Below, piece by piece: positions 37,471 through 62,257 of a DNA stretch of 64,000 nt. A program made the position numbers and the translations under genes. Source of the DNA: Magnetospirillum sp. (GTDB taxonomy: Bacteria; Pseudomonadota; Alphaproteobacteria; CACIAM-22H2). Every line of letters begins with the position of its first letter. Within the stretch, counting starts at the first letter, position 1. The stretch lies in NCBI GenBank assembly GCA_027532905.1, contig JAPZUA010000002.1, positions 372,001 to 436,000 on the forward strand. Direction: 5' to 3'. Under the pieces are notes generated by a model, which was not told the DNA's origin, did no database searches, and saw only the letters and a list, made by a program, of their open reading frames with translations.

Positions 37471-37498
37471 TTGACCGAGCTAATCTGCTGTGTATTAT
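37471..37498 (+). promoter_or_regulatory. promoter of the Ssu-type ABC / dehydratase operon
   Basis: TTGACC at 37471-37476, 16-nt spacer, TATTAT at 37493-37498. The LacI-type operator 37497-37512 overlaps the end of the -10 box, an effective repression position. Confidence 0.6.
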
Positions 37499-37512
37499 GT
37501 AAGCGGTTTCAT
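37497..37512. promoter_or_regulatory. LacI-type operator, copy 1
   Basis: ATGTAAGCGGTTTCAT; 12 of 16 positions are symmetric around the central pair. It belongs to a seven-copy family in this window and lies 24 bp before the likely TTG start of the permease gene, on top of the promoter. Confidence 0.75.
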
Positions 37513-37536
37513 AAATCGCCTGGGGGGGCGTCTTTT

Positions 37537-38313: not shown

Positions 38314-38336
38314 ATAAACTTTCAGGAGGAACCAAG

Positions 38337-39320: not shown

Positions 39321-39321
39321 C

Positions 39322-44161: not shown

Positions 44162-44176
44162 GTTAATCGCTTACAT
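44161..44176. promoter_or_regulatory. LacI-type operator, copy 2
   Basis: AGTTAATCGCTTACAT, 13 of 16 matches to the consensus ATGTAAGCGCTTACAT, starting at the last base of the lacI stop codon. It is 144 bp (centre to centre) before copy 3, so the pair may support DNA looping. Confidence 0.5.
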
Positions 44177-44277: not shown

Positions 44278-44320
44278 TTGACAGTTTGTCGCTTGATAAG
44301 CACGATGTAAGCGGTTTCTT
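44278..44320 (+). promoter_or_regulatory. TRAP operon promoter with LacI-type operator, copy 3
   Basis: TTGACA at 44278-44283 is a consensus -35 box; the -10 box is not clear (TAAGCA or CACGAT). Operator ATGTAAGCGGTTTCTT occupies 44305-44320, about where transcription would begin, 115 bp before the dctP-like ATG. The region 44177-44277 and 44321-44434 holds nothing else I recognise. Confidence 0.65.
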
Positions 44321-45436: not shown

Positions 45437-45463
45437 TCCAACAGGTCGTCGTCGAGAGAAACA

Positions 45464-45961
45464 ATGCTTGATCGTCTCTACGTTAGAGTCATCGAAGTCC
45501 TGGTCTTCGTCGCGATTACGGCGATGGTTGGAATCGGCTTTCTTTCGACGGCGATACGTTCCGTCCCCGGTTGGGGCGGTCTCTACTGGGCCGAGGAGAT
45601 CATCCGGTATGCTTGCATCTGGATGGTCTTTCTCTGCTCGGGTCTCACCATTCGCTACGGGATCCACTTCCGGGTCGATCTCGTGCTTGCCAAATTGCCG
45701 CGGCGGGCCGGGATCGCCCTCGCTCTTTTCGCCGTCGCTGTGATGATCTGGTTCGAGGTCGTTCTGATTTGGTTCGGATCGAAGGTGACGATCATGAACA
45801 TGGAGCAGCAGTCGACCTCGCTCGAGTTCCCAATGGGATATGTCTATGTGGCCATCCCCATAGGCGGCGTACTGATGCTCTTCGAGACTTTGCGGCTCGG
45901 CTGGACAATCTGGAATCGCGGCGAACCGATTCCTGCCAGCGAACAGCCATTGGTCGATTGA
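45464..45961 (+). CDS. TRAP transporter small permease (DctQ-type)
   Basis: 165 residues, four transmembrane helices (VLVFVAITAMVGIGFLST; EIIRYACIWMVFLCSGLTIRYGIHFRVDL; ALALFAVAVMIWFEVVLIWF; FPMGYVYVAIPIGGVLMLFETL). The WAEEIIRYACIWMVFLCSG segment and FPMGYVYVAIPIG are typical DctQ landmarks. It forms a membrane complex with the DctM protein. It lies 27 nt after dctP and 12 nt before dctM. Confidence 0.94.
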   Translation: MLDRLYVRVIEVLVFVAITAMVGIGFLSTAIRSVPGWGGLYWAEEIIRYACIWMVFLCSGLTIRYGIHFRVDLVLAKLPRRAGIALALFAVAVMIWFEVVLIWFGSKVTIMNMEQQSTSLEFPMGYVYVAIPIGGVLMLFETLRLGWTIWNRGEPIPASEQPLVD

Positions 45962-45973
45962 AGGAGTTCGTTT

Positions 45974-47260
45974 TTGCTTCCTACTCTCATCTCTACCTTC
46001 TTCGTCCTGCTGATACTCGGCGTTCCCATCGCATTCTCGATCGGCGCAGCAACTTTCATTCCTCTCATGCTCGACGGTCGTTTGCCTTTCACTCTGGTGA
46101 TCACGCGCCTTTTCGGGGGCATGGATTCGTTTCCGCTAATGGCGATTCCGTTCTTCGTCCTGACGGGAACGCTCGCGAGCGCCTGCAATCTGGTCGATCG
46201 GATCATGCAACTCGCGAGCTTCATGGTCGGTCGCATGCGGGCCGGGCTCGCGCAGGTCGATATCGTGACGTCGATGCTCTTCGGCGGCGTTTCCGGATCG
46301 GCAGTCGCCGACTGCGCTGCCACCGCGGGGATTCTCATCCCGAGCATGACCAATAAGGGTTATCCTGCATCCTACGCGGTCGGGGTCTGCGCCACGTCCT
46401 CGACGATCGGCGCGCTGATTCCGCCGAGCATCCCGATGATCATCTACGGTTTCCTCACCGGTGTCTCGACCGGACAGCTTTTCTTGGCCGGTGCGCTGCC
46501 GGGTGTTCTTGTTGGCATTCTGCTCATGATTGTGGCGTATTTTCTGTCTGTTAGAGGCGGTTTCGGCCGCAACGACGAAGCGCCGCGGCGGACGATGAAA
46601 GGTTTTGTCCTTGTCATGCGCGAGTCCGGGCCGGCCATGACCATCCCGTTCATCATCATCGGCGGTATCGTCGGCGGCGTATTCACGCCGACCGAAGCCG
46701 GCATTGTTGCTGCGGTCGCGGTCCTCGTCATTGGTCATTTTTTCTATGGCGGCTTCACTTGGCGGAAGCTGCGCGAGGCCGTCATGGGTGCTGCGCTCAC
46801 AACCTCGATGGTCATGCTGATCTTGGCGGCTTCGACCGTCTTCGCAAATCTCCTGACTCGGGCACAGTTCCAGTCGGAAGCCATCGTCCTACTCAACGCG
46901 ATCACGAGCGTGGCCGAGATCCAGCTGCTGTTGGTCGTAATTATGCTGCTGATCCTGGGCTGCTTCATCGACGGCACGGCCATTCTGATTATGTTCGCCG
47001 CACCGCTCTTCGGCGTGGGACAAGCGCTCGGCTACGATCCGCTGCAGTTCGGCACGATCATCGTCATGTGCTGCTTGATCGGTGGCGTGACGCCCCCGGT
47101 TGGTACATTGATGTTCATCAGCGCCGCTGTAGCTCGCATCGGTCTCGGCGAGGCATCGAGAGGCATCTTCCCATTCTTCCTCGCGCTTTGCGTGGCGCTC
47201 TTTCTGGTCGCGGCAATTCCGCCTCTGACAACCTTCTTGCCCCGCCTATTGCTGGGTTGA
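45974..47260 (+). CDS. TRAP transporter large permease (DctM-type)
   Basis: 428 residues from TTG at 45974, with AAGGAG seven nt upstream and no nearby ATG. About 12 helices: the substrate and Na+ translocation subunit. Landmarks: GGMDSFPLMAIPFFVLTG, SMLFGGVSGSAVADCAATAGILIPSM, STIGALIPPSIPMIIYG, GVTPPVGTLMFI. It completes the importer with DctP and DctQ. A crotonase gene follows 26 nt later, so uptake is linked to a CoA-dependent step. Confidence 0.95.
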   Translation: MLPTLISTFFVLLILGVPIAFSIGAATFIPLMLDGRLPFTLVITRLFGGMDSFPLMAIPFFVLTGTLASACNLVDRIMQLASFMVGRMRAGLAQVDIVTSMLFGGVSGSAVADCAATAGILIPSMTNKGYPASYAVGVCATSSTIGALIPPSIPMIIYGFLTGVSTGQLFLAGALPGVLVGILLMIVAYFLSVRGGFGRNDEAPRRTMKGFVLVMRESGPAMTIPFIIIGGIVGGVFTPTEAGIVAAVAVLVIGHFFYGGFTWRKLREAVMGAALTTSMVMLILAASTVFANLLTRAQFQSEAIVLLNAITSVAEIQLLLVVIMLLILGCFIDGTAILIMFAAPLFGVGQALGYDPLQFGTIIVMCCLIGGVTPPVGTLMFISAAVARIGLGEASRGIFPFFLALCVALFLVAAIPPLTTFLPRLLLG

Positions 47261-47285: not shown

Positions 47286-48071
47286 ATGACCGATCTGTCC
47301 CACCTGATCTCCCGAGAGACGCCAGTCGCGCATGTCGTACTGTTGCGGATCAACAGGCCTGAGAAGAAGAACGCGTTGCACAGCACGATGGTGATCGAAC
47401 TTGCGCGCCGTCTCGACGAAGCGGCAGCTGACATCGACGTTCGTGCGGTCGTCCTGACGGGGACCGAGGAGACTTTTGCTGCCGGTGCTGATATCGCCGA
47501 GATGCTCGAGCGTGGCCCTGCCGGAACCTCGAACAATCCCGATCGCGTCAAGGCGTGGCGCCGGCTTGAGAAGTTCCCGAAGCCGATCATTGCCGCCGTG
47601 AACGGCATCGCGTTCGGGGCAGGAAACGAGTTGGCGTTGACCTGCGACTTTATCATTGCAGGCAAGAACGCGAAATTCGGCCAGCCGGAAGTGAAGATCG
47701 GCGGCATGGCCGGCGATGGCGGCACGCAGCGCCTGCCGCGCAAGATCGGCGCCAATATGGCGTCCTACATGCTCATGACGGGCGATCCGATCGATGCCGA
47801 GACGGCCTGGCGGCTGGGATATGTGATCGAGATCTGCGAGGTCGCGAAGACCGTCGCACGCGCCGTCGAAATCGCTTCGACGATTGCTTCGCGCGCACCC
47901 GTTGCCGTGCAGTTTACAAAGGCGTGCATCGGCGTTGCCGTCGGCGCAACGCATGAGAACGGAATTTCCTACGAGCGCGATTCGCTGTGGCGCAATTCGA
48001 TGGCGGAGGATCGCCGCGAAGGCATGTCGGCGTTCGTTGAGAAACGCGCGCCGAAATTCACGGGCAGATAA
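47286..48071 (+). CDS. enoyl-CoA hydratase/isomerase family protein (crotonase)
   Basis: 261 residues. Crotonase fold with oxyanion hole AAGADIAEM and NGIAFGAGNELA; both hydratase glutamates are present by context, Glu115 (GNELALTCDF) and Glu135 (FGQPEVKIG), so hydratase activity is plausible. It acts on an acyl-CoA made by a partner such as the CoA transferase encoded immediately downstream on the other strand (10-bp convergent gap). It is the last gene of the TRAP operon. Confidence 0.93.
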   Translation: MTDLSHLISRETPVAHVVLLRINRPEKKNALHSTMVIELARRLDEAAADIDVRAVVLTGTEETFAAGADIAEMLERGPAGTSNNPDRVKAWRRLEKFPKPIIAAVNGIAFGAGNELALTCDFIIAGKNAKFGQPEVKIGGMAGDGGTQRLPRKIGANMASYMLMTGDPIDAETAWRLGYVIEICEVAKTVARAVEIASTIASRAPVAVQFTKACIGVAVGATHENGISYERDSLWRNSMAEDRREGMSAFVEKRAPKFTGR

Positions 48072-48081
48072 GAGGGGCCCG

Positions 48082-49266
48082 TCAGGCGGCGGGCTTCGTC
48101 CCGTCGCCCACGACGCCACGCTTGATAAGGTCGTCGATCTTTTCCTTCGAATAGCCGAGCTCGGCCAGCGCTTCGCGTGTGTTCTCGCCGATGCCGTAGG
48201 CACGGATGCGCAGCGGCAGCGTCTCGTCGTCGTACTTGACGGGATGGTTCACGAGCACGGCTTTCGCACCGCGAATGTCGATTTCGGTGAAGGCATCGAC
48301 TGCCTTTGCCTGCGGATCGTCGGCGACGTCGTCGAAGTCGTAGATCTTGCTGTACCACAGCCCCGCATCGTCGAACGCCTTCGAGACCTCGGCAAAAGTC
48401 TTCGTGGCAACGACCTTCGCAAAGACCTGCGCGTAGCGGTCGCGCTCTTTGAAGCGGTCGATATGCGCGATCGAACGCAGCTCGTCGCTGCCGAGCGCGT
48501 CGGCGACCTTCATCGGATCGTTGACCGACATCGCGATCTCGGCATCGGCGAGTTTGAACTGGCCGTAGGGCGCTTGGTGGTACCACGTCGCAAGATGCGG
48601 ATCGCGCTTCAGGATCTTGCGGTCGGGACGGGTCGACAGATAGACGGTCAGTGGCTCCGTCTGGAGGTCGAGGCCGGCGGTGTAGAGCGAGCTTTCGACC
48701 TTTGTGCCTTTGCCCGTCGTGAGCTTTTTGACGAAGGCCGCGATGATGCCCATCGCCAGAACGGCGCCGCCATGCTGGTCGATGACGGCCGAGCCGACCG
48801 CGCGCGGCTCGTCGTTGCCGGTTGCCGCCATGAGGCCGGTGCGCGCCTGGACGATGATGTCTTGGCTGGCCTTCGAGATCATCGGGCCTTTGCTACCCCA
48901 GCCGGTTCCGCTCGCATAGATCAGATCCGGCTTGACCTTCTTCAACGCTTCATAGCCAAGGCCGAGCCGATCCATCACGCCGGAACGATAGTTCTCGACG
49001 ACCACGTCGGACGTCGCGACCATCTCCTTGATGATCGCAAGTCCTTCGGGACTCTTGAGATTGACGGCGAATGTCTTTTTGTTGCGGAACGCGCAGAGGT
49101 AAAGGCCGCTCACGCCGCCGATATGCGGGCCGGGCCATCGGCGCGCGCGTTCGCCTTCGATCGGCTCGACCTTGATAACGTCGGCACCAAGGTCGGCAAG
49201 ATACTGCGTGCAGGCGGGGCCCTGCAGCACGTGGCAGAAGCTGAGAACCTTCATTTTTTCGAGCAT
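48082..49266 (-). CDS. family III CoA transferase (CaiB/BaiF, formyl-CoA transferase type)
   Basis: 394 residues from ATG at 49266, after GGAG; a longer frame reaches into the ALDH gene. CaiB/BaiF landmarks: VLSFCHVLQGPACTQYLADLGADVIKVEPIEGE, FRNKKTFAVNLKSPEG, DVVVENYRSGVMDRLGLGYE, IYASGTGWG and the catalytic Asp163 in VIDQHGGAVLAMG. It transfers CoA between carboxylates. It is cotranscribed with the ALDH gene 37 nt upstream. With the crotonase gene in the same regulon it suggests activation of a carboxylic acid followed by hydration or dehydration. Confidence 0.94.
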   Translation of the reverse strand: MLEKMKVLSFCHVLQGPACTQYLADLGADVIKVEPIEGERARRWPGPHIGGVSGLYLCAFRNKKTFAVNLKSPEGLAIIKEMVATSDVVVENYRSGVMDRLGLGYEALKKVKPDLIYASGTGWGSKGPMISKASQDIIVQARTGLMAATGNDEPRAVGSAVIDQHGGAVLAMGIIAAFVKKLTTGKGTKVESSLYTAGLDLQTEPLTVYLSTRPDRKILKRDPHLATWYHQAPYGQFKLADAEIAMSVNDPMKVADALGSDELRSIAHIDRFKERDRYAQVFAKVVATKTFAEVSKAFDDAGLWYSKIYDFDDVADDPQAKAVDAFTEIDIRGAKAVLVNHPVKYDDETLPLRIRAYGIGENTREALAELGYSKEKIDDLIKRGVVGDGTKPAA

Positions 49267-49303
49267 ATCGGTCTCCGGTGTCGCGACGCGCGTCGGAACT
49301 TGT

Positions 49304-50785
49304 TCAATTGAGCTGAAGATGGATTGTCTTGAGCTCGGTGAATTCATCGACGGCAAACCTGCCGCGTTCATGGCCACTGCCGCTTTCCTTGTGGCCCGTC
49401 AGCGGAAGTTCCGGCGTGCCAGCCATATAGGTGTTGACTTCGATCGTGCCGGCCTTGAGCCCGCGCCCGAAGCGGAAGGCTTTGTCGAGATCGCGTGTCC
49501 ACACGCCGGCCGACAAGCCATAAGGCGTTCCGTTTGCGATGGAGATCGCTTGATCGACCGTTTCGAACTCGATCGCCGATAGGACAGGCCCGAAGATTTC
49601 CTCCTGTGCGATCGACATCTTCGGATCGACCTGGGTGAAAAGCCCCGGTTGTACGTAGTTCTTTCGTGCGGGGCCGTCCGACGGTCGACTCCAGTAGGTC
49701 GCACCGTCGCGCTGGCCGGCTGCGATGTAGCCGCTGACGCGTTCGAATTGTGCAGCACTGATGAGCGGGCCCATTTCCGTGGCTGGATCGAGCGTATCTC
49801 CGACGCGGACGGCGAGCATGCCGGCCCTGACGCGCTCGAGAAATTCGCGCGCTATCGAGCGCTCGACCAGAAGACGCGAACCGCTCACGCAAGCCTGCCC
49901 GGCATTGCGCGTGGCGCCGATCACGACTTTCTGCGCTGCGGTCTCGAGATCGGCGTCGGCGCATACGATATGCGCCGATTTGCCGCCGAGTTCGAGCGAA
50001 AGCTTTTTGAGAGCAGCTCCCGCTTTGCCGGCGATTTCCTTGCCGACCCGGGTCGACCCGGTGAACGAGATCATGTCGACGCGGGGATCGGCGCACAAAG
50101 CTGCCCCGACATCGTGGCCGAAGCCGGGGAGCACGCTGACGACGCCGGGCGGAATGCCTGCCTCAAGCAGGATACGGCCGAGCAGGAGTGTGGTGCCCGA
50201 TGTGAGTTCACTGGGTTTGACGACCGCGCAGCAGCCGACCGCCAAAGCGAAGGGCAGCTTCTGGCTGATAATGAGCAATGGGTAGTTCCACGGCGTGATC
50301 ATGGCGACGACGCCGTAGGGCTCGCGCAGGATCAGGCCCATCTGGCCGCCGCCGAGATTGTCGTACGTGTCGCCGTAGGTATGGCGGGCGAGGGTCGCCG
50401 CGTATTCCCAGTGCGCAATGGCGCCGCGAACTTCGCGCTCCGCATTGGTGACGGGCTTACCGCATTCGAGACATTCGATACGGCGGAACTCGTCGAGGTT
50501 CTCTTCGATGCGGCGCGCCACGCCGAGCAGGATTTTGGCGCGCTGTGCGCCGGACATTCCGCTCCAGACGCGTTTCTCGGCTGCGGCCGAGGCTGCCGCG
50601 ACGGCAGCGTCAACGTCGGCAACCGTCGCTCTTGGATATCGGCTGATGGCGATATCATGTGTTGGATGCCGCCGCTCGATAGGCTCCCGATCGCGCGTTT
50701 CGACGAGCTTGTCGCCGACGATCGCCGGAAGCTCGATCGGCGTTCCGGGCAGTTTCACCGGCCAGGCAGCTGATGCGGTAGACAT
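49304..50785 (-). CDS. aldehyde dehydrogenase family protein
   Basis: 493 residues, standard ALDH length. PWNYPLL, FTGSTRVGKEIAG (NAD site), general base Glu265 (LELGGKS) and catalytic Cys299 (NAGQACVSGSR) are intact. It oxidises an aldehyde to an acid with NAD(P)+. Shine-Dalgarno TTGGAGAAAC before ATG 50785. The LacI operator at 50812-50827 with an upstream TTGACA (minus strand, 50832-50837) gives it its own promoter, even though the GMC gene upstream reads the same way. Confidence 0.95.
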   Translation of the reverse strand: MSTASAAWPVKLPGTPIELPAIVGDKLVETRDREPIERRHPTHDIAISRYPRATVADVDAAVAAASAAAEKRVWSGMSGAQRAKILLGVARRIEENLDEFRRIECLECGKPVTNAEREVRGAIAHWEYAATLARHTYGDTYDNLGGGQMGLILREPYGVVAMITPWNYPLLIISQKLPFALAVGCCAVVKPSELTSGTTLLLGRILLEAGIPPGVVSVLPGFGHDVGAALCADPRVDMISFTGSTRVGKEIAGKAGAALKKLSLELGGKSAHIVCADADLETAAQKVVIGATRNAGQACVSGSRLLVERSIAREFLERVRAGMLAVRVGDTLDPATEMGPLISAAQFERVSGYIAAGQRDGATYWSRPSDGPARKNYVQPGLFTQVDPKMSIAQEEIFGPVLSAIEFETVDQAISIANGTPYGLSAGVWTRDLDKAFRFGRGLKAGTIEVNTYMAGTPELPLTGHKESGSGHERGRFAVDEFTELKTIHLQLN

Positions 50786-50811: not shown

Positions 50812-50837
50812 ATGTAACCGCTTTCTTTTTATGTCAA
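50812..50837 (-). promoter_or_regulatory. ALDH promoter with LacI-type operator, copy 4
   Basis: On the plus strand the operator reads ATGTAACCGCTTTCTT (50812-50827). The minus-strand -35 box TTGACA is 50837-50832, so the operator covers the spacer and -10 region. It lies 26 bp upstream of the ALDH ATG. Confidence 0.7.
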
Positions 50838-50865: not shown

Positions 50866-52572
50866 CTAGTGGCCAGCGCGGATGAGATCTGCAACGCGCT
50901 CGGCAACCATGATCGTTGGCAGGTTGATGTTGGCGCGCGGGATGGCGGGGAAGATCGATGCGTCGACGACGCGCAGGCCGCCAATACCGTGAACGCGTCC
51001 AGCAGAGTCCGTGACCGCCATGGGATCGTCGGCGCGTCCCATACGGCACGAACACGACGCGTGCCACACGCCGACCGCGGCCTTGCGCACAAACGCCTCG
51101 AGCTTGTCGTCGTCGGCAAGCAACACGTCGAGCGGTTCGGATTCGACCACGAAGTTGTTGAACATGAACCGGCGCAGCGGGGCAGGGCCGTCCAGGATTG
51201 TGGCCAGGATGCGCGTAAGGATGCGGTTCTTCGTATTGACCTCGCTCACTTGGCGGATCTTCTCGCTGAAGCTCGCCGCGAACGGGTCGGCCACGGCCGC
51301 GCGCATCTCGGGTACCTCGAAAACTGCGCGCAACCGTCGCATCGCCGCCATCAGGCGCACGAGATCGCGACGGTCGTGCAGCAGTTTGAAATCGACTTTG
51401 GGCTGGTCGCGCCAATCGGCCGAGTTGAGGCGGACTTCGCCGGCCTCCGAAAACGTCTTGTTGACCCATGTCGTCACCGAGCAGATTTGCTCGCCGACAT
51501 GATGCCAAGCGGCCTTCGTCGAAACCGATACGGCCATGTCGGACACCGGCATGCCCGGAATGTCGGACGTGAAGCGAAGCCCGACGAGAAGATGGCGCCG
51601 TGTTTTCTCCTGCAGGCGGGCGTGCGGGTGGATAAAGGCGGCCAGCGCGACCGACGGATGGTCCATCAGCCGCTGGCCGACGCCCGCAAGCGCATGCCGC
51701 AGCTCGATCCCGTGCGCGTGCAGTTCGCCGACAGGCCCGACGCCCGCACGCATCAGCATGGGCGGCGAGTAAATGGCCCCGCACGAAAGAATCACTTCGT
51801 GCGCGCGGAACTCGCGCAGTTCGCCATCGACAATTGCGCGCACGCCGACGCAACGACGTCCTTCGAATATGAGATCGCGAACATGGCAGTCTGTCCGGAT
51901 CGTCAGATTCGGCCGCGCGCGTACTGTGTTTGTCAGATAGGCGATTGCCGTCGGCACGCGTCGGTCGTAAAGATTCGAGATCGTAAAGGGATGGTATCCG
52001 TCGACGAATTCGCCGTTCTGGTCGGCAAGGTATTTGAAGCCTAGCTGCTCGAATCCGGCTGCGATCGCCTTGGCTTGACCGGCCCACATGTCGGGAAAGA
52101 TTCGGCGGATCGGCAGCGGGCCATCCTTGCCGTGCAGCGGTCCGTCGAAGTCGTTGTCGCGTTCGAGTTTCCGGAAATAGGGCAAGACCGAGTTCCAGTT
52201 CCAGCCGTTCGCGCCGAGCGTCTCCCACTCGTCGTAGTCGACGGGGCCGCCGCGGTTGGCAAGCTGCCCGTTGATCGACGAACCGCCGCCCAGGACGCGC
52301 GCCTGCTCGTACTTGCGCAGGCGCGGACTTGGGGCATCCGGCTGGTTGTGCGGGATCGTCTCCGTCGTTACGCGCAGGTCGTTCCAAAGGAAGCGGCGAT
52401 CGAGGAATGCGTAGGCGGCGAAGCTGTCGAGAATGCGTTCTGGCGTCGCGCCGTCCTTGATGTTGGGACCGGCTTCGAAAAGGAGGACCGAGGTTGCACT
52501 GCTCTCGGTCAGCCGGGTTGCGAGAACCGAACCGGCGGATCCGCCGCCGACGATGATGAAGTCGTGTGACAT
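50866..52572 (-). CDS. GMC family FAD-dependent oxidoreductase
   Basis: 568 residues from ATG at 52572; upstream in-frame codons to 52743 lie in the promoter region. FAD motif DFIIVGGGSAGSVLATRLTE near the N-terminus, GMC signature ARVLGGGSSINGQLANRG, and C-terminal WHASCSCRMG with the catalytic His, then PRANINLPTIMVAERVADLI. It resembles choline/alcohol dehydrogenases of this family and oxidises a primary or secondary alcohol. With ALDH immediately downstream it gives an alcohol-aldehyde-acid sequence. A LacI operator lies in its promoter. Confidence 0.94.
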   Translation of the reverse strand: MSHDFIIVGGGSAGSVLATRLTESSATSVLLFEAGPNIKDGATPERILDSFAAYAFLDRRFLWNDLRVTTETIPHNQPDAPSPRLRKYEQARVLGGGSSINGQLANRGGPVDYDEWETLGANGWNWNSVLPYFRKLERDNDFDGPLHGKDGPLPIRRIFPDMWAGQAKAIAAGFEQLGFKYLADQNGEFVDGYHPFTISNLYDRRVPTAIAYLTNTVRARPNLTIRTDCHVRDLIFEGRRCVGVRAIVDGELREFRAHEVILSCGAIYSPPMLMRAGVGPVGELHAHGIELRHALAGVGQRLMDHPSVALAAFIHPHARLQEKTRRHLLVGLRFTSDIPGMPVSDMAVSVSTKAAWHHVGEQICSVTTWVNKTFSEAGEVRLNSADWRDQPKVDFKLLHDRRDLVRLMAAMRRLRAVFEVPEMRAAVADPFAASFSEKIRQVSEVNTKNRILTRILATILDGPAPLRRFMFNNFVVESEPLDVLLADDDKLEAFVRKAAVGVWHASCSCRMGRADDPMAVTDSAGRVHGIGGLRVVDASIFPAIPRANINLPTIMVAERVADLIRAGH

Positions 52573-52640: not shown

Positions 52641-52656
52641 ATATAAACGCTTTCAT
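52641..52656. promoter_or_regulatory. LacI-type operator, copy 5 (GMC promoter)
   Basis: ATATAAACGCTTTCAT, 14 of 16 to ATGTAAGCGCTTTCAT. On the minus strand it lies between a -35-like TTGCGC and a -10-like TTATAT, about 70 bp upstream of the GMC ATG. Confidence 0.65.
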
Positions 52657-52766: not shown

Positions 52767-52802
52767 TTGACATGCAAACGAGATTCATGTAAGCGCTTAA
52801 CT
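52767..52802 (+). promoter_or_regulatory. promoter and LacI-type operator, copy 6 (DHDPS-like gene)
   Basis: TTGACA at 52767-52772 and operator ATGTAAGCGCTTAACT at 52787-52802, which covers the expected -10 position (17-nt spacing gives TAAGCG). 28 bp further on is the ATG of the DHDPS-like gene. Confidence 0.7.
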
Positions 52803-52830: not shown

Positions 52831-53790
52831 ATGGCGTTCGACCTCACGCAGGGCGTAATCGCGGCCCCCGTCACTCCGTTCAACCCCGACGAGTCGGTCG
52901 ATTGGACCACGCTCGACCGCTATATGGCCGAAATCGCCGCCGGCGGCCCGCAGGGCATCGCCATGAACATGGCGGCAAGCGAAGGCGGATCGCTGACGAT
53001 CGACGAGCAGCTCGAGGTCATCCGCCGAACCAAGAAGGCCGCCGCTGGCGCCTGCGCCGTCCTTTCCGGTGTCGTTGCGGCAAGCACCACGAAAGCGGCC
53101 GAACTCGGCAAGCGTCTGGTCGATGCGGGTGCCGATGCGCTGGTCATCTTTCCGCCGCTGCCGACTTTCATATCCAAGCCGCTGCCGGTCGAAGTCGTCG
53201 TCGATTTCCATAAGGCGATCGCCGATGCCTCGGGCGTGCCGATTATCGCGTTCCACACGCCGTTCGTCGATTATCCGCCCGGCACGATCAAGGGCCTTGC
53301 CAAGCTGAAATCCGTCGTGGCGCTGAAAGATGCCGCCTTCAATGTAGACCGCACGGTCGAGATCGTCGAAGAAGCCGAAGGCACGCACATCAAGATCCTG
53401 ACCGGCAACGACACCTTCATTCTCGAAGCGATGCTGATGGGCTGCTCGGGTGCGCTGATCGGTTTTGCCGGAACCGCGACGGCGAAGATCGTCGAAATGC
53501 ACAAACTTGCCGTGGCCGGCAAGATTACCGAGGCCTACCAAATCTGGAACGCGCTTGGCCCGCTGGCACGCATCTGCTGGCGTGCGCCTCTGCGCGACTA
53601 TCGCGTGCGCATGAAGTATGCGCTGGTTCGCCAGGGCGTCATTCCGCACGCGACGGCGCGTTTGCCGCAGCCCGCGATCACGGACCAGGACAAGGCCGAT
53701 CTGGACCGTTGCTTCGAGCGTTTCGGCCTCGACCAGCCCGCCTATCTCCCAGCGGGGCGCAAGTTCCAGCGTTCGCGAGCGGCCGAGTAG
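52831..53790 (+). CDS. DHDPS/N-acetylneuraminate lyase family protein with altered active site
   Basis: 319 residues, TIM barrel of the class I aldolase DapA family. The Schiff-base lysine is present (Lys166 in VVALKDAAF). The usual Thr-Thr of G-T-T-G-E is replaced by M-A-A-S-E (47-51), and the usual catalytic Tyr of Y-N-x-P is Phe141 in A-F-H-T-P. It is therefore unlikely to make dihydrodipicolinate. Family members with other activities include KDG aldolases, dehydratase-decarboxylases of 5-keto-4-deoxyglucarate and trans-hydroxybenzylidenepyruvate aldolases. It heads a two-gene unit with a Zn alcohol dehydrogenase, 12 nt apart, under a LacI operator. Confidence 0.9.
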   Translation: MAFDLTQGVIAAPVTPFNPDESVDWTTLDRYMAEIAAGGPQGIAMNMAASEGGSLTIDEQLEVIRRTKKAAAGACAVLSGVVAASTTKAAELGKRLVDAGADALVIFPPLPTFISKPLPVEVVVDFHKAIADASGVPIIAFHTPFVDYPPGTIKGLAKLKSVVALKDAAFNVDRTVEIVEEAEGTHIKILTGNDTFILEAMLMGCSGALIGFAGTATAKIVEMHKLAVAGKITEAYQIWNALGPLARICWRAPLRDYRVRMKYALVRQGVIPHATARLPQPAITDQDKADLDRCFERFGLDQPAYLPAGRKFQRSRAAE

Positions 53791-53801: not shown

Positions 53802-54830
53802 ATGCTGGCGCTTCGCAAGCTCGGAACTGCGCCGGGCGTCGCACTCGTAGATGTCGCCGAACCCGAGATTGCGGGCCCTGACGACGTGAAGATCGAAGTG
53901 ACGGCCGCCGGCATCTGCGGCTCCGATTTGCACATCGATCACTGGTCGCCGGGCTACCACCATCTCGGGCCGTCGCTGCCGTTGACGCTCGGGCACGAGT
54001 TCGTCGGTCGCGTCGTCGATCGAGGATCGTCAGGGTCGGCACCAGCCGTGGGCAGCCGCGTGACGGTCGTGCCTGCGACGACATGCGGCTATTGTACCGC
54101 ATGTCTTGCGGCCGACTTCGATGCGTGCCGCGAGCGTCGTGGAATCGGCGTGATGCGCGATGGCGGGTTCGCGCGGTATGTCGTCGTACCTGCGCGCAAT
54201 TGCATCTCGATTCCGGATGCTTTGCCCGACGATGTCGCGGCGCTGACGGAGCCCGTCGCGATCGGCGTGAATGCCGTCATGACGGCGGCGCTGAAGGCAG
54301 GCGACAGGGTTGTTGTGTTCGGGCCTGGAACGATCGGACAGGCGATTGCCGTCGAAGCCCGCCGTGCCGGTGCGGATGTGACCGTCGTCGGATTCCGCGA
54401 CGAAAGCCGCATCGCCGTTTTGCGTTCGCTCGGCTTCAGCCAACTCGTCGACCTCAGCGATTCAGCACAGTCTTCGGCACTTTCTGCGCTTGCAGACTCC
54501 GTCGATTGCGTCTTCGAAGCGTCGGGTGCTGCATCGGCGTTCAAGGCGGCACTGGGTTTGCTGCGCCCCAAGGGCCGGCTCGTCGTCGTCGGCATCCATT
54601 CCGTACCCGGCGAAATCGATCTCGTTCGCCTTGTGCGGAAACGCCTTCAGGTGGTGGGGGCGTTCAGTTCGCCCGGCGCGATCTGGCCGGACGTAGTCAA
54701 GCGGCTGGCAGATGATCCGACAATGTACGCGAAGTTCGTGACCCACCGCTATTCGCTGGAAAACGTCCTCGCCGGCTTCGATGTGGGGCATCGCCGCGAG
54801 GCGTCGAAGGTCATCGTCCGGCCAACCTGA
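53802..54830 (+). CDS. zinc-dependent alcohol dehydrogenase (sorbitol/threonine dehydrogenase-like MDR)
   Basis: 342 residues from ATG at 53802. Catalytic zinc region GICGSDLHIDHWSPG and GHEFVG; structural zinc cysteines C-x2-C-x2-C-x7-C in TTCGYCTACLAADFDAC. Rossmann motif VVVFGPGTIGQAIA. It oxidises a polyol, sugar or hydroxy-acid secondary alcohol with NAD(P). A frame open to 53709 lies within the preceding gene. It is the second gene of the DHDPS-like unit; the convergent MmgE/PrpD gene ends 21 bp downstream. Confidence 0.93.
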   Translation: MLALRKLGTAPGVALVDVAEPEIAGPDDVKIEVTAAGICGSDLHIDHWSPGYHHLGPSLPLTLGHEFVGRVVDRGSSGSAPAVGSRVTVVPATTCGYCTACLAADFDACRERRGIGVMRDGGFARYVVVPARNCISIPDALPDDVAALTEPVAIGVNAVMTAALKAGDRVVVFGPGTIGQAIAVEARRAGADVTVVGFRDESRIAVLRSLGFSQLVDLSDSAQSSALSALADSVDCVFEASGAASAFKAALGLLRPKGRLVVVGIHSVPGEIDLVRLVRKRLQVVGAFSSPGAIWPDVVKRLADDPTMYAKFVTHRYSLENVLAGFDVGHRREASKVIVRPT

Positions 54831-54851: not shown

Positions 54852-56234
54852 TCAGGGGCGCGGAACCATCAGGGCGACGAGGCGGCGTATGTCGGCGACC
54901 TCTTCGATGCGATCGACCATGTCGATGATCTCACGCGCCGCACCGGCCGTAAGCACGGTCGTCAAAAGATCGAGCGCCTTTTCCTGGACCTGCACTTTCG
55001 ACATCGGGTTTTCCGCTCGCCCCAGCACGTTCCGGTCCTGATCCGCGACGAACGTGCCACGGCTTGTTTCGATTTCGACCTGCGCGTCGAAACGGCCGAG
55101 ATGCGGCTTCGGTCCGAGGAAGTCGATGCGCTGGCCGACGGCAACAACGGTTGGATCCTGCATCCTTTCGGCGTCGTGCGCCGAGTCGAATGTCAGCCTG
55201 CCATCGACGAGTGTTACGGCCATGCAGTAGCGCAAATTGACGTCCGGCATCTGAGTCTTGTCGCCGATGACCTTGTACCAATCCTCGTTGTAGTAGATGC
55301 GAACGCGCTTGGTTTCCCCAGGACCGACACCGTGCTGGCGGATGATCTTCTCGAGTGCCGCAAGCGGTGCCGCGATCGGATAACCGATCGGATAGCACTT
55401 GATGTCGGTCTCAAGGATTTCGTGGCGCGCGCCGAGCGCGTCTGTAAGGGCTGCAGGCCGCGGGTGGGAAGTGATGGCGTCGAGCATATTGCGGTCGCTC
55501 ATCTCCAGCACGTCCCCGCCGCCGGAGAAGCCGGCACGCACGAGTGCCGCGCACTTGGCACCGTTCATTGCCGGCATGCCGGCAAAGACGTAGCTTTTGA
55601 GCGTATGGCGCGCGTCGCGCCGCCAGGTCGTGAGGCCGGAGGCTTCCTGTGCGAGATAGTTGAGCAGGATTTTGAATCGCTCCGCATCGAATCCCATCAG
55701 GGATCCGGCTGCATAGCCGGCGCCGAACAGCGGGCCGTAGGCGTGGCTCGACATGGAAGATTGCTTGAAGGTCATTCCGGCGCCGAAGGCCTTGGCGAAG
55801 CGGATTGTCATCTCGTATCCGAGGATCGTCGCGCGCAGCAATCGCGCACCGTTCGTCCCCAGCTCCTCGCCGACCGAAATCGCGGACGGAACAACGCCGC
55901 AGCCAGGATGGGTCTGGCTTTCTTCGTGCGAATCGTCGGATTCGTCGGCGTGTGCTGCCATACCGTTGGCGAGCACGGCCTCCGCAAGCGGTGCTCGCAA
56001 GGCTGTCCCGAGAATTGTTGCGGCCGGGCGGCCGCCCAATGACGTGGCATAGCGCTGACCGGCGATGCCGGCCTCAAGTGCGGCACCCGAGACGATCGCG
56101 GCCAGTGTGTCGAGGAGTTGCAGCTTGCCCTTCTCGAGGACTTCGCGCGGATAGTCGGCAGTCGCGGCGGCGGCGGCGTGTGCTGCAACGATGCCGCCAT
56201 AGTCGTAGCTCCGATCGTGATTGCCCGATTCCAT
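54852..56234 (-). CDS. MmgE/PrpD family protein
   Basis: 460 residues from ATG at 56234, with GAG about nine nt upstream; ATG 56243 is an alternative. Landmarks of the family: LLDTLAAIVSGAALEAG, AVLANGMAAHADESDDSH, HPGCGVVPSAISVGEELG, FKQSSMSSHAYG, IKCYPIGYPIAAPLAALE. Members include 2-methylcitrate dehydratase, cis-aconitate decarboxylase and immune-responsive gene 1 product; itaconate-type chemistry is possible but not shown. No other methylcitrate-cycle gene is nearby. Its promoter region abuts LacI operator 7. Confidence 0.93.
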   Translation of the reverse strand: MESGNHDRSYDYGGIVAAHAAAAATADYPREVLEKGKLQLLDTLAAIVSGAALEAGIAGQRYATSLGGRPAATILGTALRAPLAEAVLANGMAAHADESDDSHEESQTHPGCGVVPSAISVGEELGTNGARLLRATILGYEMTIRFAKAFGAGMTFKQSSMSSHAYGPLFGAGYAAGSLMGFDAERFKILLNYLAQEASGLTTWRRDARHTLKSYVFAGMPAMNGAKCAALVRAGFSGGGDVLEMSDRNMLDAITSHPRPAALTDALGARHEILETDIKCYPIGYPIAAPLAALEKIIRQHGVGPGETKRVRIYYNEDWYKVIGDKTQMPDVNLRYCMAVTLVDGRLTFDSAHDAERMQDPTVVAVGQRIDFLGPKPHLGRFDAQVEIETSRGTFVADQDRNVLGRAENPMSKVQVQEKALDLLTTVLTAGAAREIIDMVDRIEEVADIRRLVALMVPRP

Positions 56235-56300
56235 GCGCGTCATCTCGCCGCGTAACGCGGCGCTCCCAAGCTGTTCTTTTTGCCTACCGTCCGATGCTGG

Positions 56301-56346
56301 TTGACAGTTTGCCGCTTTCATTCATAGTTTATGAGAGCGCTTACAT
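56301..56346 (+). promoter_or_regulatory. promoter and LacI-type operator, copy 7
   Basis: TTGACA at 56301-56306 with TAGTTT at 56325-56330 (18-nt spacing), then operator ATGAGAGCGCTTACAT at 56331-56346. A half-site CCGCTTTCATT lies within the spacer (56312-56322). It serves the plus-strand operon starting at 56386 and, being about 100 bp before the MmgE/PrpD start on the other strand, may control both. Confidence 0.7.
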
Positions 56347-56385: not shown

Positions 56386-57270
56386 ATGGAAACGAAGTTT
56401 GGGGTTGTCGGCACTGCGCATTGGGCGACGAACGTGCATTCGGTTGGGCTGCAGCAGACGCCGGGTGCGCGCCTTGTCGGCATATGGGGTCGCGATCTCG
56501 AGAAAACCCGCGCATTGGCTGCTGCGCGCGGCGTCGCCGCGTTTGCGCGCTTTGACGACATGCTTTCGGAGGTCGATGCGATCAGTTTTGCGGTGCCGCC
56601 GCAGATCCAAGAGGAATTCGCCTTGCGCGCACTGCATGCAGGCAAGCACACGCTGCTCGAAAAACCGATCGCGACGTCCGCCAGTGCCGCGCGCTTGCTT
56701 GCCGAGGCGGCACTGCGTGCCAATGCCGCAACCATCGTATTCTTCATGCGGCGCTTCGTCCCCGAGATCGCCGATTTTGTCGCGCGATATGACGCCGGCG
56801 ATTGGCGCGAGGCGGAAGTCGTAGTCCGCTCGGCGACGTTCGCTTCCGACAGCCCGTACCGCAACTCCGTCTGGCGCCAGGTTGCGGGATCCGAGATTTG
56901 GGATGTCGGCCCGCACATCCTGTCGATCCTGTTGCCGCTGCTCGGTTCGGTCACGGCGGCCCGCGCTCTCGCGCCCGAAGGGGGCTTTACGCGATTCGAA
57001 ACGACGCATGTCGGCGGTGCGCGCGCGCTAAGCCGCATTAACCAACGCGCCGATCCCGGCGATACTTGCAACATCTATCGTTTCCGGGGGCCGGCTGGCG
57101 AGGTAAGCGCCCCGGAGCCGGTGCTCGACAGGACGGCTAATTATGTGCGCGCCGCGACGGCTCTGGTCGAAAGCATCCGCGACCGGGCCCGGGTTCACCC
57201 GTGCGACGTCGCACTCGGTGCCGAAACCGTTCGCATTCTCGAACAGATTGCGCCATGGCGCGACGCATGA
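56386..57270 (+). CDS. Gfo/Idh/MocA family oxidoreductase
   Basis: 294 residues, shorter than usual (about 330-390) but with the core: Rossmann start KFGVVGTAHWATNVH, cofactor/catalytic LLEKPIATSASAARLLAEAA, FMRRFVPEI. The N-terminal G-x-G-x-x-G is degenerate (G-T-A-H-W-A), so NAD(P) binding may be altered. It is the first gene of a six-gene unit (transporter, two enolase-superfamily enzymes, FMN oxidase) behind LacI operator 7. Its stop overlaps the permease start by 4 bases. Confidence 0.86.
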   Translation: METKFGVVGTAHWATNVHSVGLQQTPGARLVGIWGRDLEKTRALAAARGVAAFARFDDMLSEVDAISFAVPPQIQEEFALRALHAGKHTLLEKPIATSASAARLLAEAALRANAATIVFFMRRFVPEIADFVARYDAGDWREAEVVVRSATFASDSPYRNSVWRQVAGSEIWDVGPHILSILLPLLGSVTAARALAPEGGFTRFETTHVGGARALSRINQRADPGDTCNIYRFRGPAGEVSAPEPVLDRTANYVRAATALVESIRDRARVHPCDVALGAETVRILEQIAPWRDA

Positions 57271-58952
57271 CGAAGCGGGCACTCCTCGATCGACCTGCGA
57301 TCGCGTGGGCGATCGCCGCTTTGTGGCTCTCCTATCTCGTTGCAATTCCGATCGGCTACATGACGGTCGACAGCCTGACCGACGACGGGCTGACGTTCGC
57401 AGCCTATGTCGACTTTTTCGAGGATCCGAAACTGCGCACGGCCATGCGCAACAGCTTGACCGTTGCTGCGGGCGTAGCGGTCTTGAGCGTGTTGGTGGGG
57501 GCTCCGCTCGCATTCGGTGTCGTGCGCACGCAGATGCGTGGCCGATCGGTGGTGAGTGCCGCGATGATCGTTTGCCTCGTCAGCCCCGATTTTCTGCTCG
57601 CGATGGCATATATCGCACTGGCTGGGCCAAACGCCGGATATTTCAATCAGGCCCTTCGTACGGTCTTCGAACTGAAGACGGAATCAGGCCCGCTCAACAT
57701 CTTCACGCTCTGGGGGCTCGTGCTGACGGCGCTGCCGCATGGCGTTTCGTACGTCTTCCTGGCGCTTGTGCCGGCATTGCGAAACGTCGATCCGGCACTC
57801 GAAGAAGCTTCGCGCGTGCAGGGGGCCGGGCCGATCGAAACGATACGCGATGTGACGCTGCCGCTGATGCGGCCGGCACTGCTTTCGGGCGCATTGCTCG
57901 CGTTCTCCGGCAGCCTCGCGATGTACGGACCGCCGCACATGCTACGGCTCAACGTGCTGACGATCTCGATCCGCGAATCGCTCGTCCGGCTCGATTTCAA
58001 GGCTGCCTCGGCCGCCTCGATGGTGCTGATTTTGATGTCACTGGCCGCCCTCGTGCTCTACCGGCGTTCCACGCGCCAGGCGGAGCGCTTCCGCACTGTT
58101 GGCGGCAAGTCCTTCTCCGAGCGCGCCGGTGCCGAAGGGCGCATCGCGGCCGCCTTTACGGTTCTCGGCGTCGTCTATGTGCTCGCCGTACTCGTAGTAC
58201 CTTATGGCGGCATGACCGTCATCTCGCTGATGAAGAGCGTGGGGATGGGCTTCTCGGCCGGGAACTGGTCCTTCGACAATTATCGCGCAGTCTTCGCCGA
58301 TCCGGCCGTGCGCAAGGCGGCGACCTTGAGCGTTTCGCTCGCCGCCGCCACCGCAACGCTCGTCACGGTGATGGGGTTCGTCGTCGCCTACGTCGTCATA
58401 CGTCTGAAGCTGCGCGGGCGCTGGCTGCTTGACTACATGTCGATCATCCCGCTCGCCGTGCCGGGAACCGCATTGGCGATAGCGCTTGCCGTCGTCTATT
58501 TGAATCCGCCGCTGAATGCCCTCGGCCTCTATGGCGGCTTTGGAATCCTGTTCGTCGCCTACCTCACGCGCTTCATCACGTTCGGCGTGCGCACGAGCCA
58601 GAGTTCGTTGATCCAACTTTCGCCAGAGTTCGAAGAGGCTTCGCGTGTCGGCGGTGCCGGCGGTCTCAAGACAGTGGCACTCATCACCTTGCCGATGATG
58701 CGCCAGGCGCTCGTATACGCGTGGCTGCTGGTTTTCGTGCTGGCGCTGCCGGAGCTCAGCGCTTCGATAATTCTCAAAGGCATCCACACCCAGACGCTTT
58801 CCACCGTGCTCCTCGACATCTGGAATGGCAATGGCGGCCTTGCCCAGGCCTGCGCGTTTGGAATGACGATGTTCGCCTCGGTCGGCCTTCTTCTGCTCAC
58901 GGCCGCCGCGATCGCCAAACGTGCGAGCGGCGGCCTGCGTATCGGAACATGA
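57267..58952 (+). CDS. fused two-domain ABC permease (Fe3+/polyamine type)
   Basis: 561 residues from ATG at 57267 (ATGA overlap). Two BPD_transp_1 domains in one chain, each with an EAA loop: LEEASRVQGAGPIETIRDVTLP and FEEASRVGGAGGLKTVALITLP, about 12 helices in total. This is the FbpB-like fused architecture of Fe(III) and phosphonate/spermidine-type importers. The following binding protein and ATPase are of the same group. In this context the ligand is more likely an organic acid than iron. Confidence 0.93.
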   Translation: MTKRALLDRPAIAWAIAALWLSYLVAIPIGYMTVDSLTDDGLTFAAYVDFFEDPKLRTAMRNSLTVAAGVAVLSVLVGAPLAFGVVRTQMRGRSVVSAAMIVCLVSPDFLLAMAYIALAGPNAGYFNQALRTVFELKTESGPLNIFTLWGLVLTALPHGVSYVFLALVPALRNVDPALEEASRVQGAGPIETIRDVTLPLMRPALLSGALLAFSGSLAMYGPPHMLRLNVLTISIRESLVRLDFKAASAASMVLILMSLAALVLYRRSTRQAERFRTVGGKSFSERAGAEGRIAAAFTVLGVVYVLAVLVVPYGGMTVISLMKSVGMGFSAGNWSFDNYRAVFADPAVRKAATLSVSLAAATATLVTVMGFVVAYVVIRLKLRGRWLLDYMSIIPLAVPGTALAIALAVVYLNPPLNALGLYGGFGILFVAYLTRFITFGVRTSQSSLIQLSPEFEEASRVGGAGGLKTVALITLPMMRQALVYAWLLVFVLALPELSASIILKGIHTQTLSTVLLDIWNGNGGLAQACAFGMTMFASVGLLLLTAAAIAKRASGGLRIGT

Positions 58953-58978
58953 ATCTAAAAAAAACAAGGGAGGAAACG

Positions 58979-60001
58979 ATGGAAAAGAAAATCGGAATTC
59001 GTCTGCTGACAGGTGCGTTCATCGGTGCTTTGGTCGCCCATGCACCTGCGTCGGCGCAGCAGAGGCTGACAATCTATTCGGCCTACGAGAATTCGCAGAT
59101 CGCACCGCTGACCAAGGCGTTCGAAGCGAAAAATCCGGGCGTTGCGGTCGATCATTTCCGCCAGCCTGGCGAGGAGCTGCTCGCCACGATCGAACTCGAG
59201 CTGCGCGCCCGCTCGCCAAAGGCGGACGTCGTGGGGCTCAACGATGCATCCATTGCCTATCTGCAGAAACGGCACGACGCCTTCGAGCCCTACGCTGCGA
59301 AGGACGCCGATAAGGCGCGCGTCGAGATGCGAAGCCCGCAGAACATTTTCACGCCTGCGTTCGTCAATCTCTACTTGATCCACTACAACACGCGGAGGAT
59401 CTCGGAGGCCGACGTGCCGAAAAGCTGGGCCGATCTGGCAGATCCGAAATGGAAGAATCAGATCGCGATGGCCGACCCGAGCAGTTCGCAGTCGGTCCAG
59501 TCCTTTGTGTGGTTCATCGCCGACTATTTGGTCAAGTCCGACCCCGCCAAGTTCGGATGGGACTATTTCAAGCGCATGGGGGCCAACGGCGTGCATCTCG
59601 AATCGTCGCACGGCACGATCCGGGATCTGACCGTCAGCGGCGAGCGTCCGATCGGGATCAATCTCCTGGCAAATGCCCAGACCGCGAAAAATCGCGGCGA
59701 GCCGACCAGCAACATCTGGCCAAGCGAAGGCGTGCCCGGCGAACTCTCGGCCTTCGGTCTGCTGCGCGCATCGAAGAACAAGGAGCTCGGCAAGAGGTGG
59801 CTCGACTTCATCATCTCGCCCGAGGGTCAGGGGCTGATGCCGGCGTCCCTCGGCGGAGCGCCGGTGCGCAACGACGTAGCCTACAAATATCCGGACGGCT
59901 CGTCGCTCGAGCGGGTGAAGATCATTCCGGTCGATTCGACTTTCATCTCCGACAACAAGCGCACGCAGGCCCGGAAGTTCCATGATGCCGTTGGGAAATA
60001 G
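58979..60001 (+). CDS. ABC transporter substrate-binding protein (Fe3+/polyamine type)
   Basis: 340 residues from ATG at 58979 behind GGGAGGAA. Sec signal peptide (IGIRLLTGAFIGALVAHAPASA), then an SBP_bac_6/FbpA-like fold: LTIYSAYENSQIAPLTKAFEAKNPG, IHYNTRRISEADVPKSWADLADPKWKNQIAMADPSSS, YFKRMGANGVHL. The usual iron-ligand twin tyrosine cannot be confirmed, so the cargo is open. It overlaps the ATPase gene start by 20 bases. Confidence 0.9.
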   Translation: MEKKIGIRLLTGAFIGALVAHAPASAQQRLTIYSAYENSQIAPLTKAFEAKNPGVAVDHFRQPGEELLATIELELRARSPKADVVGLNDASIAYLQKRHDAFEPYAAKDADKARVEMRSPQNIFTPAFVNLYLIHYNTRRISEADVPKSWADLADPKWKNQIAMADPSSSQSVQSFVWFIADYLVKSDPAKFGWDYFKRMGANGVHLESSHGTIRDLTVSGERPIGINLLANAQTAKNRGEPTSNIWPSEGVPGELSAFGLLRASKNKELGKRWLDFIISPEGQGLMPASLGGAPVRNDVAYKYPDGSSLERVKIIPVDSTFISDNKRTQARKFHDAVGK

Positions 60002-61133
60002 AACAGGCGAACTGGCTTCGTCGGGGGCGCTGTCGCGCGCCTCCGGCGTCGATCTGCGCGTCGCAGGCTTGCGCAAATTGTATGGGTCTGTCGTCGCCGT
60101 CCACGATGTCGGCTTCGATGTCCCGGCCGGCCAGATGATCTCGCTCATCGGGCCGAGCGGCTGCGGCAAGACCACGACCTTGCGCATGATTGCGGGCCTC
60201 GAGCAGCCCGATATCGGCAGCATCGTGGCGGGCGGGCGCGTGCTCGTCGATGGCGAGGCCCGGCTTCCGCCCGAGCAGCGTGATCTCGGCATGGTCTTCC
60301 AGAGCTACGCTCTGTGGCCGCACATGACGGTCTTCGACAATCTCGCCTACGGTCTGAAGCGGCGCGGTCACGCCCGCGCGGCGATCGCAGGCAAGGTGGC
60401 CGAGGTTCTTCGCATCGTCGGCATGTCGGATTACGCGGCCCGCTTTCCGGGCCAGCTTTCCGGCGGTCAGCAGCAGCGTGTGGCGCTGTCGCGCGCCATC
60501 GCGACGGAGCCGGGCATACTTCTCTTCGACGAACCGCTCTCCAATCTCGACGCCGTTCTGCGCGAGCAGATGCGATTCGAGATCCGGTCGCTGCAGCAGC
60601 GGCTCGGCATCACGGGCGTCTATGTCACGCACAGCCAGGACGAAGCGCTGGCGATGTCCGACCAGATCGCCGTCATGCGCGACGGGCGCATCGTCCAGAT
60701 TGGCAAGCCCGCGGAAATATACGGGCTCCCGCGCTCGCGTTTTGTCGCGGCCTTCATCGGACTGACCAACCTCGTTGATCTGCGCGCGATTTCGGTCGAC
60801 GGGAACGGCGTCGCCGGATCGTTGTCGAGCGGGGCGATCATTCGCGCGCGGGTCGGGGCCATCGAGGCAGCATCCTCGGGCGGCACGGTCGCCGTGTCGA
60901 TCCGGCCGGTCGAAATTGCGATAAGCCGTGGTGCGGGTGCTGGCAACGCCGAGAACCGGCTCGCAGGGCGTGTGCGCACGACGGCTTTTACCGGTGGGCT
61001 CATCGACTACTTTGTCGATGTCGGCGGCGGATTGGAGCTGCGGGTCCAGACAACGCCGCCTGCCGCCGCGGAACCCGGCGATGATGTAATGCTTTCGTTC
61101 GCTGCCGACCGCACGGTCGTGCTTGCGGACTGA
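59982..61133 (+). CDS. ABC transporter ATP-binding protein (FbpC/PotA-like)
   Basis: 383 residues. Walker A GPSGCGKTT, Q-loop VFQSYALWPHMTVFDNLAYGL, signature LSGGQQQRVALSRAIA, Walker B ILLFDEPLSNLDA, H-loop VTHSQDEALAMSD, then a C-terminal TOBE region (from about 250) as in PotA/FbpC. It energises the fused permease. ATG 59982 or 59985 both fit; the gene overlaps the receptor gene by about 20 bases. Confidence 0.94.
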   Translation: MMPLGNRTGELASSGALSRASGVDLRVAGLRKLYGSVVAVHDVGFDVPAGQMISLIGPSGCGKTTTLRMIAGLEQPDIGSIVAGGRVLVDGEARLPPEQRDLGMVFQSYALWPHMTVFDNLAYGLKRRGHARAAIAGKVAEVLRIVGMSDYAARFPGQLSGGQQQRVALSRAIATEPGILLFDEPLSNLDAVLREQMRFEIRSLQQRLGITGVYVTHSQDEALAMSDQIAVMRDGRIVQIGKPAEIYGLPRSRFVAAFIGLTNLVDLRAISVDGNGVAGSLSSGAIIRARVGAIEAASSGGTVAVSIRPVEIAISRGAGAGNAENRLAGRVRTTAFTGGLIDYFVDVGGGLELRVQTTPPAAAEPGDDVMLSFAADRTVVLAD

Positions 61134-61157
61134 TACGAGACAGGATCGGAGCGCGCG

Positions 61158-62234: not shown

Positions 62235-62257
62235 ATTGCCCTGAAGAAGGAACGAAA

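Follow-up and report, generated by a model that had tools for sequence, protein, structure and literature searches.

Gene organisation and predicted operators at the dapA-like locus

The stretch of DNA analysed here, referred to as the window, spans 64 kb and contains a dapA-like gene at 52831–53790 on the forward strand. This gene, designated dapA*, encodes a protein of 319 aa and is flanked by genes for the uptake and conversion of sugar acids. On its left side, the forward strand carries genes for an ABC transporter (permease, binding protein and ATPase; 37498–40116, a span that includes an operator), the binding protein of which we take to be of the NMT1 type. These are followed by genes for an IlvD/Edd sugar-acid dehydratase (40144–41847), the Gfo/Idh dehydrogenase A (41878–42957), a LacI-family regulator (43061–44161), a TRAP transporter of three genes (44435–47260) and a PaaF-like enoyl-CoA hydratase (ECH; 47286–48071). 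The reverse strand then encodes a CaiB-type (family III) CoA-transferase (48082–49377), an aldehyde dehydrogenase (49304–50785) and a GMC oxidoreductase (50866–52572), which is divergent from dapA* and the reading frame of which extends to 52743, the start at 52572 being assigned by eye. Directly downstream of dapA* follow a forward-strand gene for a zinc-dependent alcohol dehydrogenase (53802–54830, start also set by eye), a reverse-strand gene for an MmgE/PrpD family protein (54852–56321) and, again on the forward strand, a run (56386–63364) encoding Gfo/Idh B, an ABC transporter with an SBP_bac_6-type binding protein and two acid-sugar dehydratases of the mandelate-racemase family. The cluster thus carries three transporters in the order ABC, TRAP, ABC. 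An Rfam scan of the 36–64 kb part of the window gave no match.

The preliminary description had placed dapA* under LacI control together with sugar-acid genes. In agreement with this idea, a palindromic LacI-type site was matched eight times in the window when up to three mismatches were allowed, while 100 shuffles averaged 1.11 matches and never gave more than 5. Seven of the eight predicted operators, all given on the forward strand, lie at cluster promoters. They are located before the run of ABC transporter, IlvD, Gfo-A and LacI genes (37498–37511), twice between the LacI gene and the TRAP operon (44162–44175 and 44306–44319), upstream of the aldehyde dehydrogenase gene (50813–50826), upstream of the GMC gene (52642–52655), over the dapA* promoter (52788–52801) and between the MmgE/PrpD and Gfo/Idh B genes (56332–56345); the eighth match, at 10067, is outside the cluster. 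The site at dapA*, found by both the motif scan and the matrix described below, lies 17 bases downstream of a −35-like TTGACA box (52767–52772), a placement that fits a repressor sitting over this promoter. Since orthologues with 96, 95 and 80% identity are present in three genomes of the same genus, and since the −35-like box and the operator precede the reading frame, we regard dapA* as a real gene.

At the scale of the 4.26-Mb genome, a degenerate operator pattern found seven distinct sites, six of them in the window, and a reversed control pattern matched once. When a matrix of the window sites was applied to 12 promoters of dapA* orthologues, a site was detected in 10. Nine of these 10 sites were unmatched by any of 1000 random sequences, and for the remaining one 7 of the 1000 random sequences matched; the two promoters without a matrix site were those of L033 and L034. 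As the matrix was built from window sites, enrichment within the window is partly circular, and a fairer comparison is given by the shuffles and by the promoters of the orthologues. The orthologous sites of the Opitutae, Burkholderia and Roseicitreum loci come from distant organisms, and several of the other loci are close relatives. Together, a linked LacI gene, a predicted palindromic operator shared by the cluster promoters and similar predicted sites before distant orthologues match what is expected of a LacI-type regulon.

The partners of dapA* recur as well. Conserved with it are genes for LacI, ECH, the CaiB CoA-transferase and Gfo/Idh dehydrogenase A, plus a transporter, and it is this smaller set that is kept in an Opitutae MAG and in Burkholderia sp. 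Ac-20365, where the types of the transporters, named from blast matches, are presumed. A Roseicitreum plasmid carries most of the cluster plus genes annotated as LarB and LarC and a putative LarE, the latter being our reading of the annotation 'adenine nucleotide alpha hydrolase'. These nickel-pincer cofactor genes lie within the orthologous cluster (L037, 16782–18792 and 26428–27078), which suggests that a nickel-dependent hydroxy-acid epimerase belongs to the same pathway. A GMC orthologue adjoins dapA* in L024, L025, L026, L027, L028, L029, L011/L038 and L068, and L030 and L037 carry one elsewhere within the cluster. No GMC match at E ≤ 1e-100 was detected in three of the seven genomes checked, including those of the Opitutae and Roseomonas, and we therefore place GMC outside the core set. 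In other relatives of the branch described below, the dapA-like gene is adjoined by little besides a regulator and a transporter. Separately, proteins of about 230 aa with similar N-termini were observed near dapA-like genes in L027 (7185–7871, reverse strand) and L045 (10658–11356, forward strand); the L027 protein had no match in Pfam or NCBIfam.

An altered active site conserved in a separate branch

The dapA* product clearly belongs to the DHDPS/NAL superfamily, as its match to the Pfam DHDPS model (PF00701) scored 125 bits against a curated cut-off of 22.1. Every NCBIfam match, in contrast, was far under its own cut-off. The best was the dapA equivalog model (130.1 versus 206.15 bits), the second-best was one of two KdgD models, a subfamily model (74.5 versus 278 bits; the other KdgD model gave 49.4 versus 373.95 bits), and the two nanA models for N-acetylneuraminate lyase gave 49.3 versus 382 and 49.4 versus 281 bits.

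An AlphaFold2 model built from 13 aligned sequences had a mean pLDDT of 92.3 and a pTM of 0.91. Structure prediction was one of the checks that the preliminary description had proposed, and at the level of the fold it supported a DHDPS/NAL barrel. For this model, the nearest solved folds in Foldseek were DHDPS/NAL enzymes, with TM scores of 0.80–0.92 over almost the full length, and VIA-align 2 returned DHDPS/NAL chains at Z 37.3–38.5, the best of which (Z 38.5) superposed with an rmsd of 1.9 over 290 residues. KdaD chains were absent among the 50 VIA-align 2 matches listed, an absence to which we attach no weight. According to their titles, the Foldseek matches include the engineered enzymes E. 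coli DHDPS Y133F (1s5w) and C. glutamicum NAL Y138F with pyruvate (5c55), which carry by mutation the Phe that is natural to the branch of dapA*. When two further proteins of this branch were searched against the PDB sequences, canonical DHDPS enzymes came out at the top, among the best three alignments of each.

It had been claimed from the letters of the sequence that Lys166 is kept, that the G-T-T-G-E motif reads M-A-A-S-E and that the tyrosine of the Y-N-x-P motif is Phe141. A HMMER alignment with solved DHDPS enzymes bore out each of these assignments: GTTGE of the E. coli-type DHDPS aligns with MAASE, the catalytic Tyr with Phe141 and the Schiff-base Lys with K166. A separately run MAFFT alignment gave the same placement, and the residue numbering (M47, A48, A49, S50, E51, F141 and K166, next to H142 and Y148) was checked. 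The Glu of the GTTGE motif is thus kept as E51, while the Arg that follows the catalytic Tyr in DHDPS is gone, and a longer PPLPTF loop occupies the place of the loop that bears Y106/Y107 in canonical DHDPS; the numbering of this loop and the roles of the DHDPS active-site residues are those we assume for the family. The canonical Thr/Tyr proton relay is accordingly missing, at its usual positions. PMC11201819 names the corresponding residues of DHDPS as Tyr133, Thr44 and Thr45.

These replacements are not peculiar to dapA*, as the preliminary description could be read to imply. They characterise a whole branch of the superfamily, here called the Phe-Gln branch, and Tyr-less relatives of the KdaD type are already known as enzymes (PMC9795676 and PMC13398020). 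To count residues, we used 32 Phe-Gln rows (14 of the clade of the window gene, itself included, 11 of a sister clade and 7 others), six canonical rows and three KdaD-type rows; L003, L008 and L024, duplicates of the window gene or of L009, and L025, the same gene as L010, were left out. All 32 branch rows carry Phe at the position where the six canonical rows, without exception, have Tyr. The next residue is Gln in 28 and His in 4 branch rows, and the Schiff-base Lys is present in all 32. None of the 32 has Thr at either Thr position, Ser standing at the first in a single row (L033). Tyr148 is found in 29 branch rows, two of the others having Phe and one Trp, but in none of the canonical or KdaD-type rows; of the 28 Tyr-type paralogues sampled, 3 have an equivalent as well. 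Many branch rows are close relatives, so that these counts are not independent, and some sister-clade rows are tblastn fragments, L035 being partial. The rows come from Alphaproteobacteria, Burkholderia, Acinetobacter, Opitutae and a haloarchaeon, and the substitutions are conserved and do not look like random drift. We therefore reject the idea that dapA* is a broken gene, given that the Lys and the new residues are conserved throughout the 32-row branch.

A tree of 35 rows was built without L009, L018, L021, L028, L029 and L035, each a near-duplicate or a fragment. In it, the Phe-Gln branch was split from the Tyr-type rows with a support of 93/85 and from the KdaD-type rows with 100/99, with several long branches flagged by a program warning. 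The clade of the window gene was supported at 100/98, and together with its sister clade at 100/100. Beyond the window clade, the branch has members in Acinetobacter, Burkholderia, Neorhizobium, Agrobacterium and the archaeon Natrinema, and the branch proteins are annotated solely as 'dihydrodipicolinate synthase family protein'. The window clade itself is uncommon, being detected in 1 of the 144 genomes searched of the Burkholderia genus and in 4 of 299 genomes of the family of the Roseomonas genome. In the window's class, of which 385 genomes were searched, no match outside the window's own family exceeded 32%. This patchy occurrence suggests horizontal transfer. Sister-clade genes (MNMDASE / CFQFP; L014, L035 and L040–L045) adjoin NMT1-type ABC transporter genes in many genomes of the same family.

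DHDPS-family paralogues were inspected as well. The host genome contains seven DHDPS-family genes, one of which, L001, keeps both GTTGE and the Tyr and scores 315 bits on the Pfam model. Three others are of the KdaD type, in which Gln takes the Tyr position and the second residue after the Lys is Glu (L004, L005 and L007, on contig C2 near 104 kb and at 628–631 kb). Of these, L005 and L007 are no more than 3 kb apart and have sugar-transport and enolase-family genes as neighbours. Among 40 paralogue places in relatives, 28 had Tyr, 7 the Gln and Glu of the KdaD type and 5 Trp; these places were hand-picked in eight genomes with known Phe-Gln places left out, and are thus no measure of Phe-Gln frequency. 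The best-scoring DHDPS places also inspected in relatives had Tyr in 29 of 29 cases. The proteins with Trp at the Tyr position combine a GKQGE motif with W-S-H-P (L104, L108, L116, L133 and L137). The DHDPS family is strongly expanded in relatives of the window's genome, with 4 to 14 copies in genomes of the same genus and 21 in one genome of the same family.

Proposed reaction and alternatives

We propose, at roughly even odds (about 0.5), that the dapA* product is an active Schiff-base enzyme of the separate Phe-Gln branch, which serves a LacI-controlled catabolism of sugar acids or related hydroxy acids. In favour of this reading are the DHDPS/NAL fold, the kept Lys, the conserved Phe and Gln/His, the separate branch in the tree, the predicted operators at the cluster promoters and the recurring ECH, CaiB, Gfo/Idh-A and LacI partners. 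Its chemistry is probably different from that of the lysine-biosynthesis enzyme. The earlier suggestion of another reaction stands in so far as a normal DHDPS role is unlikely, the dapA score being under its cut-off and a better dapA candidate being present elsewhere in the genome; the other reaction itself is likely.

Mechanistically, the co-regulated IlvD/Edd and mandelate-racemase-family dehydratases would supply a 2-oxo acid from sugar acids, and Lys166 would form an imine with its C2 carbonyl. With no Tyr over the imine, elimination, most likely dehydration, would by analogy to KdaD be favoured over a retro-aldol cleavage, residue 142, Tyr148 and water being candidates for the acid/base role. 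The product may then pass to the CoA-transferase and the enoyl-CoA hydratase, in an order that is guesswork. We favour a Schiff-base lyase acting on a sugar acid-derived 2-oxo acid, with dehydration more likely than aldol cleavage, because KdaD/AbLPDHT, the sole characterised Tyr-less relative found in print, only dehydrates (PMC9795676). Its mechanism is not simply transferable, however, since none of the 32 branch rows has its catalytic Glu at the second position after the Lys. Within the Schiff-base reading, a dehydratase comes first, at somewhat less than an even chance; a C–C lyase ranks second as a plausible but tentative assignment, and something else third, with a smaller though real share. 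Owing to the loss of Thr45, the substrate could even be no 2-oxo acid at all. Sulfoquinovose, Kdo, L-sorbose, isosaccharinate and itaconate-type acids were considered as substrates and set aside, as none explains CaiB, ECH and the dehydratases together.

The most serious competing explanation, doubtful but with a substantial minority chance, is a conventional pyruvate-dependent aldolase of the KDG or 4-hydroxy-2-oxo-acid type, with the part of the lost Tyr taken by Tyr148, the neighbouring Gln/His142 or an ordered water. The near-constancy of Tyr148 in the branch and its absence from canonical and KdaD-type rows would suit such a substitute, and DHDPS and human 4-hydroxy-2-oxoglutarate aldolase are about equally near to the modelled fold (Z 38.5 and 38.1, respectively). 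In addition, relatives in which the regulator and transporter are the near-sole neighbours fit a single cleavage step to pyruvate, and hence into central metabolism, at least as well. On the other hand, PMC9795676 describes Tyr as the base in published aldolases of the family, and the occurrence of Tyr148 in some Tyr-type paralogues implies that it need not be a substitute.

An L-2-keto-3-deoxyarabinonate dehydratase of the KdaD type would likewise be Tyr-less and Thr-less in a sugar-acid setting, but we consider this assignment improbable, given that the Gln and Glu of that type (in 3 of 3 such rows of this genome and in 7 of 40 paralogues sampled in relatives) contrast with Phe and Ala/Ser/Gly in the branch, that the tree splits the two and that three KdaD-type genes already exist in the same genome. 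Equally improbable is a catalytically dead paralogue serving as sensor or scaffold: three classical active-site positions are indeed lost together, yet the Lys is invariant and the new residues are conserved across phyla, as for an enzyme. A true DHDPS serving lysine biosynthesis, whether as the main or as a spare enzyme, is least credible of all, because dapA is the best NCBIfam match but falls short of its cut-off with GTTGE and Tyr lost, while L001 scores as DapA and dapA* is surrounded by a LacI operator and catabolic partners.

A wider proposal, which we rate a little under an even chance, is that the Phe-Gln branch represents a third catalytic solution beside the Tyr aldolases and the Glu-using KdaD, and that dapA* is the signature enzyme of an undescribed LacI-controlled pathway that joins sugar-acid dehydration to CoA-transferase and ECH steps and is patchily spread between Proteobacteria and Opitutae. 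A Schiff-base enzyme without the acid-base residue of its family would show another route to the same chemistry. The common annotation of the branch hides this different active site. With the regulon defined and its partners conserved, what was an orphan annotation becomes a pathway that can be tested.

Comparison with known systems

In open-licence PMC papers, we found neither Phe-type members nor a report of this gene combination. With the canonical DHDPS/NAL enzymes, the dapA* product shares the barrel, the C-terminal helices, the Schiff-base Lys and the Glu of GTTGE, whereas the Thr-Thr pair, the catalytic Tyr together with the Arg that follows it, and the Tyr106/107 loop are all replaced. 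The likeness to KdaD/AbLPDHT lies in the kept Lys, the missing Tyr and Thr residues and the sugar-acid setting. According to PMC9795676, KdaD carries out a dehydration but no aldol cleavage, with Glu173 and Glu200 as its bases; the branch, in contrast, has Phe for its Gln at the Tyr position and Ala, Ser or Gly in place of Glu173. KdgD, the 5-keto-4-deoxyglucarate dehydratase, is also a Schiff-base dehydratase of the family, but the dapA* product scores far under its cut-off, and where the dapA* product has F141, KdgD has retained the catalytic Tyr, which is Y141 in AbKdgD (PMC13398020). GudL, a putative 5-KDG aldolase of Clostridia, is a further DapA-like protein recruited to the breakdown of oxidised sugars, as presented in PMC11775122; it belongs to another clade, marked by Met110 and Lys194, and is set apart here by its published description. 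The dapA* product is thus a variant within the known DHDPS/NAL superfamily, in which Tyr-less members as such are already represented by KdaD.
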